Positions 57,341 to 61,930 of a DNA stretch of 64,000 nt are shown here, in pieces. Below the pieces are notes generated by a model. It did not search any database and had not been told where the DNA came from. It saw nothing but the letters and a program-made list of their open reading frames with translations. The position numbers and the translations under genes were made by a program. Source of the stretch: Alphaproteobacteria bacterium (GTDB lineage Bacteria; Pseudomonadota; Alphaproteobacteria; Reyranellales; Reyranellaceae); the NCBI GenBank assembly GCA_947474005.1, contig CANJHI010000006.1, positions 1-64,000 of the forward strand, given 5' to 3'. The stretch's first letter is position 1, and each line of letters begins with the position of its first letter.

Positions 57341-58270
57341 ATGAGTGCCATGGCGACCCATGCCCTGCCGGATCTGAGCGCCCGCCAGCTCGAAGCCGTC
57401 CTCGCGGTGGCTGAGTACGGCAGCTTCATCGCCGCCTCGGCGCGCCTGCGCATCTCGCAGCCGGCGCTGACGCGGACCATCAAGCGGGTCGAGGCGGCGC
57501 TCGGCGTGCGGCTGTTCGAGCGCAGCACGCGGCATGTCCAGATCACGCCGGCCGGCCGCGAGTTCGTGGCCGTGGCCGAGCGCCTGCTGAACGACCTTCG
57601 GCTCACCGTGCGCAACCTCCGCGAGGTGGCTGAGGAGCAGCGCGGACGCCTCACCCTTTCCTGCATCATGTCGGTGGCGAGCGGCGTGCTCCCGCTGCTG
57701 CTCGCGACCTATCGCGCCGACCGTCCGGGCATCGAAATCCAGGTGCGCGAGGGCGTGCATGGCAGCGTGCTCGAGGACGTGCGCAGCGGCGGCGCCGATC
57801 TCGGCCTCTCCTATGTCGACGACCTGCCCGATGCGGTCGAGGGCATTCCGCTGCAGCGCGAGACTTTTAGCGTGGTGGTGCCGAAGCGTCACCGTCTCGC
57901 TGCGCGGCAAAGCCTCGCCTTGGCCGAACTCAAGGACGAGCCGATGGTGGCGCTGCCGTCCGACTCTCGGACACGGCGCACGATAGATGCCGCCGCCTCG
58001 ACCGCCGGCCTTTCGCTGCGTCAGGTGGTGACGGTGGGCCAGTTCGCCACCTTGATGGGCTGCGTGCGCGCGGGCGTCGGGCTCGCGGTCGTGCCGACCG
58101 GCGCGACCGGCTTCTTCCTCGGCCGCGACCTGCGCGCCATTCCGGTGAGCGAACCCCGCCTGTCGCGGCGGCTGGGGCTCATCATGCTGCGCGAGCGCGA
58201 GCCGTCGCCAGCGGCTTCAGGGTTCATGGCGCTCGTCCGCCGGACCTGGCCGAAGCCCAGCCGGCTTTGA
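57341..58270 (+). CDS. LysR-family transcriptional regulator
   Basis: This 309-residue regulator has an N-terminal winged HTH (residues 12-70: LEAVLAVAEYGSFIAASARLRISQPALTRTIKRVEAALGVRLFER) and a periplasmic-binding-protein-like effector domain (residues about 95-300). ATG 57341 or 57350 could be used. It is divergent from CaiB/BaiF and upstream, on the same strand, of the 350-residue protein and the UGSC gene (87-bp gap with a dyad at 58275), so it could control either. Confidence 0.92.
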   Translation: MSAMATHALPDLSARQLEAVLAVAEYGSFIAASARLRISQPALTRTIKRVEAALGVRLFERSTRHVQITPAGREFVAVAERLLNDLRLTVRNLREVAEEQRGRLTLSCIMSVASGVLPLLLATYRADRPGIEIQVREGVHGSVLEDVRSGGADLGLSYVDDLPDAVEGIPLQRETFSVVVPKRHRLAARQSLALAELKDEPMVALPSDSRTRRTIDAAASTAGLSLRQVVTVGQFATLMGCVRAGVGLAVVPTGATGFFLGRDLRAIPVSEPRLSRRLGLIMLREREPSPAASGFMALVRRTWPKPSRL

Positions 58271-58357: not shown

Positions 58358-59410
58358 GTGCAACTGGCTTCCAAGACCTACGACGCCAACGATATCTCCG
58401 CCGTCCAGGAGCTGTATCACAGCAGTGGCTGGACCGACGGCCTGCCGATCGTGCCGCCGACGGCGGACGCCGTCCAAGCCTGCCTCGAATGGGCGATGAT
58501 GCCGCCCGACCAGCTGATCGGCATCGAGCCGGTGCGCGGGCTCGCGATCACCGCCGAGAAATTGGCGATCAACGCCGTCATGGCCGGCTGCCTGCCGATG
58601 CATTTCCCCGTCGTGGTCACCGCCTGGATGGCCATGATGCAGGACGAGTTCCTGATGCACGGCGCCACGGCGAGCACCGGCGGCTGCGCCGTCCTGGTCG
58701 TCTTGAACGGCCCGATCCGCCTGGAGCTCGGCGCCAACGGCACTTTCAATGCGCTGGGCAACAGCGATCGCGCAACCGCTGTCATCGGTCGCGCGGTTCG
58801 GCTCTGTTTGATCAATCTGATGGACGTGCGTCCGGGCGTCATCGACCGCTCCACGCTGGGGCATCCCGGCAAGTACAGCTACTGCCTGGCCGAGGACGAG
58901 GAGGATTCGTCATGGCTGCCGTTGCATGAACAGCGCGGCGTCGAGCGCGCGGCATCGGCCGTCACCGTGATGGCGGCGGGCGCGCCACGCCAGATCATGA
59001 ACGAGTGGACGACCAAGCCCGAGGAGATTCTCGAAACCTTCGCCGCCGAGATGCGCGCCAATCTGCGGCACTACTCCATTCATCCCGGCAACTATGCCCT
59101 GATCATTCCCAAGCAGTTGCGCGAGCATCTGCAGGCCGCGGGCTGGACCAAGACCGACATCGCCACCTTCATCCACGAGCGCGCGCGCATTCACCGCCGC
59201 GAATGGGCCGAGGTCGGCAAGGGCGCGGTCGTGCGTGACCGTGGCGACAGCGTCTATCCGGCGATGGAATCGCCCGACCAGCTCCTTGTCATCGCGGCGG
59301 GCGGCCCGGCCGGCGGCTTCGGCGCGGTCATTCCGCCCTGGCTCGGCAACAAGAGCCATGCCGTGACGCTGCCGCTCGGCGTCTGCATCGATTGCGAACC
59401 GCCAAAATAG
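58358..59410 (+). CDS. Unknown conserved protein preceding the UGSC selenoprotein
   Basis: This 350-residue protein is not assigned to a family here. Visible are SSGWTDGLPIVPPTADAVQACLEWAMM, a GIEPVRGLAITAEKLAINAVMAGC block, ATASTGGCAVLVVLNGPIRLELG, NSDRATAVIGRAVRLC and the C-terminal LPLGVCIDCEPPK with a Cys-x2-Cys pair. No signal peptide or membrane helix is apparent. The start is GTG 58358 with GAGGG 8 bp before. It ends 17 bp before the UGSC gene, so they are surely cotranscribed and perhaps work together. Confidence 0.75.
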   Translation: MQLASKTYDANDISAVQELYHSSGWTDGLPIVPPTADAVQACLEWAMMPPDQLIGIEPVRGLAITAEKLAINAVMAGCLPMHFPVVVTAWMAMMQDEFLMHGATASTGGCAVLVVLNGPIRLELGANGTFNALGNSDRATAVIGRAVRLCLINLMDVRPGVIDRSTLGHPGKYSYCLAEDEEDSSWLPLHEQRGVERAASAVTVMAAGAPRQIMNEWTTKPEEILETFAAEMRANLRHYSIHPGNYALIIPKQLREHLQAAGWTKTDIATFIHERARIHRREWAEVGKGAVVRDRGDSVYPAMESPDQLLVIAAGGPAGGFGAVIPPWLGNKSHAVTLPLGVCIDCEPPK

Positions 59411-59427
59411 TAACGAAGAGGCACACC

Positions 59428-59952
59428 ATGACTTTCCGCGTTCTCGATCCGACGACCGAAAAGGCCCCGCCCGCCGGCAGGCTCGCGCCGCGCCTCGACA
59501 CGCTCGAGGGCAAGACCATCGGCTTCATCTCCAACGGCAAGGAAGGCACCAAGGGCTTCTTCAAGCACCTCGACCAGATGCTGCGCGAGGAGTACGGCGT
59601 CGCCAAGGTCGTGAGCCGCACCAAGTCCAACTACAGTGCGCCCGCCGACAAGCACATCGTCGACGAGATCAAGGGCTGGGACGCCGTCGTCTCCGGCCTC
59701 GGGGATTGAGGCAGTTGTTCATCGTGCAGTCTGCACGACTCAGTGACAGCCGAGCGCCTGGGGGTTCCGGCCTTCAGCGTGATGACCGCCCGGTTCGAGA
59801 GCGCGGCCGAGATGATGAGCCGCGTGCTGGGGATGCCCGACTACGCCTTCGCCACGATCGGCCATCCCGTCAGCAGCGCCACCGACGAGGGCCTGCGCGC
59901 CATGGCCAGGACCGCCATCGAGCAGGGTTTTAAGCTGCTGTTGCGGCCGTAG
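59428..59952 (+). CDS. UGSC-family selenoprotein with in-frame TGA as selenocysteine
   Basis: This 174-residue protein spans one TGA (59707-59709, residue 94) in frame, flanked by GWDAVVSGLGD before and GSCSSCSLHD after, giving the UGSC motif (U94-G-S-C97, then C100). The frame continues to TAG 59952 with normal GC-rich coding sequence. Codons next to the TGA (AGT TGT TCA) are unusually AT-rich, as expected for an overlapping RNA structure; a 7-bp hairpin follows. UGSC proteins are a described selenoprotein family of unknown function, first noticed in metagenomes. If TGA were a stop, the protein would end at 93 residues. Confidence 0.85.
59714..59750 (+). promoter_or_regulatory. Bacterial SECIS-like hairpin downstream of the TGA
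   Basis: The upper helix is TCGTGCA (59722-59728) paired with TGCACGA (59732-59738), with a three-base loop GTC. A lower helix of five pairs (59714-59718 with 59746-59750) frames an internal loop. The apical G is 19-20 nt after the TGA, within the usual 16-37 nt range for bacterial SECIS loops bound by SelB. A folding program was not run. Confidence 0.7.
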
Positions 59953-60001: not shown

Positions 60002-60226
60002 ATGAAACCAATTGCCGTCCTGGGCGTCCTCCTGATCGCGATAGGCATTGCGGGTCTGGTGATCGCCAACATCTCCTTCACCGAGAAGAAGGTGGTCGTC
60101 GACGCCGGCCCGCTCAAGATAACGGCCGATCAGCAGCGCAATATTCCGATCCCGACCATCGCCGGCGTGATCGCCGTCGTCGTCGGCGCCGGCCTGCTGT
60201 TCTACGGCCGCAAGGCCCGCAGCTAG
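60002..60226 (+). CDS. Small membrane protein, two helices
   Basis: This 74-residue protein has one helix at residues 4-24 (IAVLGVLLIAIGIAGLVIANI) and another at about 50-68 (IAGVIAVVVGAGLLFYG), with a short charged middle and a KARS tail. Many bacteria have such DUF3185-like proteins of unknown function. It starts 49 bp after the UGSC gene. Its stop codon overlaps the convergent Lin0512 gene's stop by 4 bp. Confidence 0.7.
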   Translation: MKPIAVLGVLLIAIGIAGLVIANISFTEKKVVVDAGPLKITADQQRNIPIPTIAGVIAVVVGAGLLFYGRKARS

Positions 60227-60567
60227 GGCAGTTCGAGCCGGACCGCGACGGCTGCACTGGCAATCACCGCCGGGTCGTTGTTGTCGGGGTCGGCGACGTC
60301 GAGCCCGCCCTTCACGACTTTCACCGTGACGATGCCGTGCGGCAGCGATGCGCGCACTTTGTCGACGTCGACCCGGTCGGGTTGCTGCACGCCGATCGTC
60401 ACATCGACGAACATGTCGGTCTTCGGGTTGACCCCGAGCGTGCGGATCATCGCCAGCGAGGAATGATGGAGCGCGTCCTGCACGGCGCGGAGCGCGGCCT
60501 TGGTGTAGTCGCCACCGTGCAGGTCGTTGCCGGTGCCGAGTTCGAGGATGACGCGTTTGGCGGCCAT
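60223..60567 (-). CDS. Lin0512 family protein (copy B)
   Basis: This 114-residue protein of the Lin0512 family (function unknown) starts MAAKRVILELGTGNDLHGGDYTKAALRAVQDALHHSSL and has VDVTIGVQQPDRVDVDKVRASLPHGIVTVKVVKGGL, the classic profile of the family. It is 14 bp downstream of its paralogue at 60582 and clearly a tandem duplicate. Pairs of such proteins suggest a heterodimer. It is near the UGSC gene and the Bug receptor 60947-61930 on the same strand. Confidence 0.85.
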   Translation of the reverse strand: MAAKRVILELGTGNDLHGGDYTKAALRAVQDALHHSSLAMIRTLGVNPKTDMFVDVTIGVQQPDRVDVDKVRASLPHGIVTVKVVKGGLDVADPDNNDPAVIASAAVAVRLELP

Positions 60568-60581
60568 GTTCCTGCTCCCGC

Positions 60582-60920
60582 TTACAAGTCGAGCCGGACG
60601 ATGGCGGCCGCCTGGGCGATCACCGTCGTGTCCGTGCCGGCTTCGTTGGGAATTTCGAGGCCGCCCTCGAACACCTTCACCGTTCCGGTGCCGTGCGGCA
60701 GCACCGCCAGCACCTGGGCCTTGTCGACCTGGTCAGGTTTGGGAACGCCGATCAGAACCTCGACCTGCATGTCGTCGCTCGACTTGCCCAACGCCGTGGC
60801 GACGGTGAGCGAGTTGTGCCACAGCGCGTCCCTCAAGGCGCGTACCGCGGCCTTGGTGTAGTCGCCGCCGCGGATATCGGTGCCCATGCCGATCTCGAGG
60901 GCGACCTTCTTCAGCGTCAT
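60582..60920 (-). CDS. Lin0512 family protein (copy A)
   Basis: This 112-residue paralogue of copy B starts MTLKKVALEIGMGTDIRGGDYTKAAVRALRDALWHNSLTVA, then VEVLIGVPKPDQVDKAQVLAVLPHGTGTVKVFEGGLEIP. ATG 60920 has a GGAGGAAG-like site; a longer frame to 61043 overlaps the Bug gene. It lies 26 bp from the Bug receptor gene on the same strand, so receptor and pair form one operon: Bug, Lin0512 A, Lin0512 B. Confidence 0.85.
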   Translation of the reverse strand: MTLKKVALEIGMGTDIRGGDYTKAAVRALRDALWHNSLTVATALGKSSDDMQVEVLIGVPKPDQVDKAQVLAVLPHGTGTVKVFEGGLEIPNEAGTDTTVIAQAAAIVRLDL

Positions 60921-60946
60921 GACTTCCTCCTCTAGGACTTCGCGCT

Positions 60947-61930
60947 CTAGGACTTGGCGAGGCCTGCCTTGATGAGCAGCGGCTTCACGTCGACATAGTA
61001 TTTCTCGGCGAAGGCGCGGAACTCGGCGGGATTCTTGTCCCACGGCACCTGGATGAACTTCGCGAGATATTCCGTGACCTTGGGTTCGGTCGAAGCCTGC
61101 TTAAAAGCCTGATAGATCGACTCGACGATCTCCGGCGGCATGCCCTTGGGGCCGAGCAGCCCGTAGGGGCTCTGGCCCACGACTTTTACGCCGAGCTCGG
61201 TCATGGTCGGCACGTCCTTGTAGCGCGGGATGCGCTGCTCGGTGGCGAAGGCCAGGATGCGGCACTTGCCGTCGTCGACGAACGGTGCCCATTGCGCGGC
61301 GTCGGCGATGAACTGGATCTCGCCGCCCATTAGCGCCTGCATCCATTCCGCGCCGCCCTTGTAGGGAACGTGGGTGAACTTGGCGCCGGTGGCCTGCTCG
61401 ACCTCGATCATCATGAGCTGGCCGGTGCCGCCCACGCCCGAGGTGCCGTAGTTGTACTTGTCGGGGTCCTTCTTGCCGGCATCGATCATGTCCTGAAACG
61501 TCTTCCAGGGAGAGTCGGTGCGCACGACGATGCCCATGGTGTAGCTCGACAGGCCGGTGATGTAGGTGAAGTCGGTCAGCGGATTCCAGTTGGTCTGCTG
61601 GTAGTGCGGATAGCGCAGCGTGTTGATGCTCATGACCGCCAGCGTCTGGCCGTCGGGCTTGGCGTTGAGCAGCATGGCCGGCGCCAGCGTGCCGGCGGCG
61701 CCCGGCTTCACGTCGATGACGATCTGCTGGCCCAGGATCTTGGTCACCGCCTCGCCCAGCAGGCGCATGTGGACGTCGGTGACGCCGCCCGCCGCGAACG
61801 GATTGTAGATCGTGATCGGCTTGTCGGGCTTCCAGCGCGTCTGGCCCCACGCAACCATGGGGGCAGCCACGGCGGCCGCGCCCGCAAGCGCAGTAAATCG
61901 ACGACGACGCACGACAAACGACTTCGACAC
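60947..61930 (-). CDS. Bug-family (TctC) tripartite tricarboxylate-type binding protein
   Basis: This 327-residue periplasmic binding protein has a Tat-like signal (VVRRRRFTALAGAAAVAAPMVAWGQ). Bug motifs are YNPFAAGGVTDVHMRLL, DVKPGAAGTLAPAMLL, KPDGQTLAVMSI, YGTSGVGGTGQLMMIEVEQATGAKFTHVPYKGG. The start is GTG 61930 with AGGAGG before it. It begins the Lin0512 operon. The ligand could be the substrate of the UGSC/Lin0512 neighbours. Confidence 0.92.
   Translation of the reverse strand: MSKSFVVRRRRFTALAGAAAVAAPMVAWGQTRWKPDKPITIYNPFAAGGVTDVHMRLLGEAVTKILGQQIVIDVKPGAAGTLAPAMLLNAKPDGQTLAVMSINTLRYPHYQQTNWNPLTDFTYITGLSSYTMGIVVRTDSPWKTFQDMIDAGKKDPDKYNYGTSGVGGTGQLMMIEVEQATGAKFTHVPYKGGAEWMQALMGGEIQFIADAAQWAPFVDDGKCRILAFATEQRIPRYKDVPTMTELGVKVVGQSPYGLLGPKGMPPEIVESIYQAFKQASTEPKVTEYLAKFIQVPWDKNPAEFRAFAEKYYVDVKPLLIKAGLAKS

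Follow-up and report, generated by a model that had tools for sequence, protein, structure and literature searches.

The locus and the UGSC gene

The DNA considered here (the window) is a stretch of 64,000 nucleotides from contig CANJHI010000006.1 of an alphaproteobacterium close to Reyranella, and the subject of the analysis is a plus-strand gene at 59428–59952, assigned by comparative evidence to the UGSC selenoproteins, together with the gene that adjoins it upstream. The UGSC gene has 174 codons plus a stop, with selenocysteine (Sec) placed at codon 94, and a ribosome-binding-like site, GAAGAGG (59415–59421, plus strand), can be read 6 nt upstream of its ATG. An earlier interpretation made from the letters alone (the sequence-only reading) described 59428–59952 as one frame with a TGA at 59707–59709 inside a GLGD-U-GSC motif, and coordinates and motif are as described: the product reads ...DAVVSGLGD-U-GSCSSCSLHD..., with the codons TGA-GGC-AGT-TGT at the Sec site. 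The split expected from an ordinary gene call was also obtained, since without recoding one piece ends at 59709 and another starts at 59743; because the gene is broken in two in this way, it is easily missed.

The assignment to the UGSC family has been borne out by near relatives and by PF24696, which matches the product at 165.7 bits (gathering cut-off, 25 bits) over residues 4–171, that is, along its whole length. The NCBIfam equivalog NF041046 (UGSC_fam), searched with Cys written for Sec, gives 120.8 bits and falls 4 short of its cut-off of 125. As judged by the Pfam profile, the gene is a member of the UGSC family (PF24696), a known selenoprotein family. With the family as presented in PF24696, NF041046 and the accessible part of PMC2398784, it shares the GxGD-U-GSC motif, the whole-length match, TGA as Sec and the Sec machinery, and no essential difference from PF24696 and NF041046 was found. 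The UxxC arrangement proposed for the Sec site also stands, whereas the further Cys at residue 100 that was proposed with it is not invariant in the family; the invariant positions are P8, Sec/Cys94, G95, C97, and F123.

The family is not a rare one. According to the accessible part of the Global Ocean Sampling (GOS) survey, with 255 selenoproteins in 37 GOS samples, UGSC ranks among the more abundant selenoprotein families of aquatic metagenomes (PMC2398784). Selenoproteins with the UGSC motif have also been reported in Geodermatophilaceae, whose tRNA-Sec has the anticodon CUA (PMC5330540). One review lists UGSC without a function (PMC9312934) and a review of 2026 describes the family as functionally uncharacterised (PMC13188914). 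The view that the function is unknown and the operon informative holds, the partner gene being its more informative part.

Decoding of the in-frame TGA

The genome contains a tRNA-Sec with anticodon UCA (71 bits), selA (537 bits) and selB (455 bits), both on contig C176, and selD (303 bits) on contig C33. Three UGSC genes are present in this genome, the window copy and two others, with one TGA in each; the two paralogues lie at C89:11993–12496 (L023) and C9:30566–31063 (L024) of genome G000. At a wider scale, 289 genomes of the class were searched for UGSC, SelA, and the partner protein. UGSC was found in 28 of them, with 73 matches, 72 of which have exactly one TGA. When 50 distinct UGSC sequences are aligned, the column of codon 94 holds Sec or Cys throughout (47 TGA, 3 Cys). 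Full-length SelA, defined by a score over 470 bits, is encoded in 27 of the 28 UGSC genomes versus 14 of the 261 others, the single exception being a 77%-complete assembly.

Alternatively, a nonsense mutation or a sequencing error could have given rise to the TGA, with the second half of the gene as a decaying remnant. In favour of this, a mechanical gene call splits the gene, but the closest relatives (mostly Reyranella metagenome genomes, 91–95% identical) have TGA at the identical codon in 13 of 13 cases, and the same codon state extends to nearly all class-wide matches. In comparisons of the 13 relatives with the window, changes at codon positions 1, 2, and 3 number 48, 48, and 208 before the TGA and 76, 68, and 241 after it, a similar excess at third positions on both sides, and the codon changes after the TGA are 203 synonymous to 106 nonsynonymous. 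By these counts, the reading frame behind the TGA is under purifying selection.

Further evidence comes from the selenocysteine insertion sequence (SECIS) element. An apical hairpin of 7 bp with the loop GTC (59729–59731) occupies 59722–59738 of the plus strand, 13–29 nt after the TGA, as given by the minimum-free-energy fold and by the relatives. In 39 distinct relatives, 94.1% of the cells of this stem are paired (the count omits the four fused-type members of a set of 43 sequences, whose own stem is shifted), the GU of the apical loop is invariant, and compensatory changes on both sides occur at 2 pairs, with covariation as high in 0 of 500 shuffles. The three Cys homologues lack the hairpin and pair at only 3–4 of the 7 stem positions. 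The nonsense explanation can draw on the fold energy of the single window stretch, which is no better than that of shuffles (z −0.78), and the 5-bp lower stem that was proposed together with the upper one differs among relatives. Only the upper stem is claimed here, because the energy of one stretch is unremarkable and the lower stem is not shared; of the proposed hairpin, the 7-bp stem is the part supported by relatives. A scan of the whole window against Rfam gave no match. At the eighth codon, with the TGA taken as the first, 33 of 43 distinct sequences have AGT and 6 have TGT, although AGT is rare in the genes of the window, accounting for 7 of the 138 Ser codons counted over ten reading frames.

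The sequence-only reading had named missing Sec machinery, or relatives ending at this TGA, as what would speak for a nonsense mutation, and both are now excluded; all of the checks it proposed that were run agree with it. With the TGA shared by relatives, selection on the frame past it, the Sec machinery present, and a covarying hairpin, the remnant explanation is regarded as extremely improbable and, on the comparative data, is refuted. Five lines of comparative evidence indicate that TGA 94 is decoded as Sec and that the product is a genuine selenoprotein.

The partner protein

The gene upstream (58358–59410, plus strand) encodes a protein of 350 amino acids that belongs to an unnamed family with the signatures GWTDGLPxVPP, NAVMAGCxP, and IGRAxRL. 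Searched alone or as 42 homologues, it has no match in Pfam or NCBIfam or, by sequence, in the PDB, and PDB sequence searches with UGSC, the partner, and both profiles yielded nothing credible. In every locus with enough flank, the partner adjoins UGSC on the same strand, usually as the first gene, with gaps mostly between −10 and 110 bp and at most 193; at one locus (L079/L040) it is absent within the flank, and a partner gene lies elsewhere in that genome. Among the 289 genomes of the class-wide survey, the 28 with UGSC all contain the partner and the other 261 do not. Moreover, at 12 loci (L052 and L086 among them being the same locus) UGSC and partner form one protein, UGSC first, in which the Sec TGA is the only TGA in frame, and these fused loci often have a second partner copy adjoining. 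For one naturally fused protein, the model has high overall confidence (predicted local distance difference test, pLDDT, 93; predicted template modelling score, pTM, 0.93), and hhalign finds UGSC and partner unrelated to each other. Co-occurrence, adjacency, and fusion argue that UGSC and its partner are an obligate two-subunit pair. In a structure search with the fused model, the UGSC domain took up the list of matches.

In the accessible part of the GOS survey, a fusion of UGSC to a domain called "Unknown_1" is described (PMC2398784); this domain may be the partner. Several variants of the pair have been observed. At L058:5190–5961, in a metagenome contig, the partner appears frameshifted, perhaps by an assembly error, and UGSC is intact. 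L109:14–1657, L106, and L107 are divergent fusions with UGAC for UGSC, the NAVMAGC motif being lost in L109. A TGA near the C-terminus of partner homologues was considered as a further Sec codon and rejected, these being ordinary stops.

Predicted fold of UGSC

The model of UGSC (pLDDT 94.3) shows a strict alternation of strands and helices, with five strands and no beta hairpin, and Sec stands at the start of helix 95–110, after strand 3 (86–92). Its closest structural matches are Rossmann- and flavodoxin-like; thioredoxin-type proteins are not among the matches listed, which alone excludes nothing. The predicted fold is thus a five-strand Rossmann-like one, and the alternating five-strand model argues against the thioredoxin-like fold supposed for the family in 2008, as given in the accessible part of PMC2398784.

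Most selenoproteins of thioredoxin fold are thought to be antioxidant, and a selenium-dependent antioxidant, peroxidase-like or thioredoxin-like, with the partner as protein client or regulator, is one alternative for UGSC. It would agree with the UxxC motif, with the fold supposed in 2008, and with three genomes in which UGSC lies about 6–7 kb from selA, two of them with frames that by reading are peroxiredoxin- and AhpD-like. However, neither the alternating model without beta hairpin nor its Rossmann- and flavodoxin-like matches are those of such a protein, and an obligate partner of 350 amino acids, the expansion of paralogues, and the transporter and catabolic neighbours fit metabolism better; the antioxidant role is considered unlikely.

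The top structural match is chain 8s7v_H (residues 67–206, Z 11.2) of the methyl-coenzyme M reductase activation complex, probably Mmp7, judged by its length. A de novo designed Rossmann protein scores almost equally (Z 10.4), so the match indicates only a Rossmann-like fold and was not adopted.

Relationship to PrdB and GrdB

When 66 UGSC sequences were compared by hhalign with 12 PrdB/GrdB-like sequences, the alignment placed Sec on Sec at a probability of 92.2%, with an E-value of 5.7e-7 that refers to one pairwise comparison, and 17 unrelated neighbour families, used as a control, did not exceed 4.3%. Direct profile matches between UGSC and PrdB-like proteins in both directions have E-values of 3.5e-4 to 1e-3. 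The 12 PrdB/GrdB-like proteins (PF07355; L090–L101) were taken from alphaproteobacteria, and 11 of them have TGA at the aligned place, in a UPxC-type motif; three that were tested match PrdB (TIGR04483) with E-values of 1e-26 to 1e-34, although they do not reach the cut-off of that model. These proteins have about 230–245 amino acids, are themselves selenoproteins, and have flanks in which the UGSC partner does not occur. The genome of the window has a PF07355 match too (C141, L119). A sequence search of the PDB with a PrdB-like protein returned no relative.

Besides this profile similarity with aligned Sec, UGSC has in common with PrdB of D-proline reductase and with GrdB, the selenoprotein B of glycine/sarcosine/betaine reductase (TIGR04483, PF07355), that Sec stands in a UxxC motif after a predicted strand and is followed by a helix with a GxP turn. 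Unlike them, it stays below the family cut-offs and lacks the N-terminal part that PrdB-like proteins have, and its partner resembles no known subunit. UGSC is therefore likely a distant homologue of PrdB/GrdB and not a member, as far as profiles can tell.

Flavoprotein and other neighbours

Reading frames around 44 loci were clustered into neighbour families, some of whose names were assigned by reading sequences, and besides UGSC and partner a single redox family recurs, a TrxB-like flavoprotein found within 4 kb at 11 loci. In 8 of these it lies 7–73 bp from UGSC or partner. Among them is the C9 paralogue of the same genome, where the flavoprotein stands 7 bp before UGSC and two tandem partner copies follow, and the flavoprotein is present as well at an actinobacterial locus of the Cys type (L068). 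All 11 share with thioredoxin reductase (TIGR01292) the FAD/NAD(P)H fold and the CxxC-D active site, but differ from it in score: TIGR01292 is the best match at 180–335 bits in the seven tested, versus an equivalog cut-off of 343 bits, and because they remain below it they are probably a dedicated subfamily and not housekeeping TrxB.

Another possible role of the pair is to bind or insert a metal or selenium species, in the manner of a metallochaperone or of cofactor assembly, with Sec and Cys as ligands. The proximity to selA in three genomes would suit such a role as well. The TrxB-like neighbour, however, points to redox turnover, Cys homologues without Sec exist, and the structural match to the activation complex, given the score of the designed protein, speaks for a Rossmann-like fold and no more; this role is held to be less probable still than the antioxidant one.

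Upstream of the pair lies a LysR-type regulator (57341–58270, plus strand; PF03466 162 bits, PF00126 73.5 bits), and LysR-related frames appear near UGSC in other loci too. On the minus strand, a TctC-type solute receptor (60947–61930; PF03401 222 bits) is a candidate for substrate uptake, and receptors of this type are kept near UGSC in Reyranella loci. Across loci the neighbours vary and include TctC, ABC, and TRAP-type transport, CoA-transferase, luciferase-like monooxygenase, and amidohydrolase-like frames, and a genome may hold up to eight UGSC copies. Because of these copy numbers and of the differing transporters and catabolic neighbours, it is suggested that the copies differ in substrate. 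Two adjacent and mutually similar genes of Lin0512 type also lie on the minus strand of the window (60223–60567, PF09585 120 bits, and 60582–61043), and the Reyranella-type loci L056, L066, and L076 keep such a pair close to UGSC. Between 52590 and 62000, a gamma-glutamyltransferase-like frame, a luciferase-like monooxygenase, LysR, TctC, and the Lin0512 pair partly recur in Reyranella-type genomes, and this gene set may delimit a catabolic cluster.

A proposed two-subunit reductase

The selenoprotein and its obligate partner probably constitute a Sec-dependent reductase of a small organic substrate, working by a cycle of the kind used by the PrdB and GrdB selenoproteins. By the comparative evidence, the ribosome inserts Sec at TGA 94 under the direction of the hairpin that follows, and UGSC is the Sec-bearing, Rossmann-like subunit, with the adjacent 350-residue protein as the other one. 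In the proposed cycle, the substrate would bind at or near the subunit interface, where the selenolate of Sec94 might attack or take up an electrophilic atom or form a selenium intermediate, and Cys97 would then resolve the selenium as a Se–S bridge. The bridge would be reduced again to the selenol by the TrxB-like flavoprotein or by the general thioredoxin system, with NAD(P)H, and the window copy could draw on general thioredoxin. The PrdB/GrdB reductases have a dithiol or thioredoxin-type electron supply.

Several points weigh against this reading. The literature yielded no account of an assay on a UGSC protein. The window copy has no flavoprotein nearby, so that this link comes from the paralogues. 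No PrdA/GrdE pyruvoyl-type subunit was recognised, and Pfam searches with the partner gave nothing better than chance. None of 38 UGSC members searched against PF07355 with E-values up to 10 gave a listed match, and because UGSC alone does not reach PF07355 the kinship with PrdB/GrdB rests on profile comparison. The proximity of Sec to the partner in the fused model is putative. Finally, Cys78 of the partner is missing in a few loci, and this residue is therefore unlikely to be essential everywhere.

A broader proposal, to which slightly less than even confidence is given, is that UGSC and partner form a previously unrecognised branch among the GrdB/PrdB selenoenzymes: obligate two-subunit, thioredoxin-fed, Sec-dependent reductases in which a protein of a new family serves as the substrate-binding subunit, diversified in alphaproteobacteria for the reductive breakdown of different organic compounds. 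In comparison with the family descriptions, including PMC2398784 in its accessible part, the additions are the obligate partner, a likely donor flavoprotein, the predicted fold, and the probable kinship with PrdB/GrdB. The partner, the likely dedicated electron donor, and the probable PrdB/GrdB ancestry would turn UGSC from an "unknown redox protein" into a concrete enzyme hypothesis.
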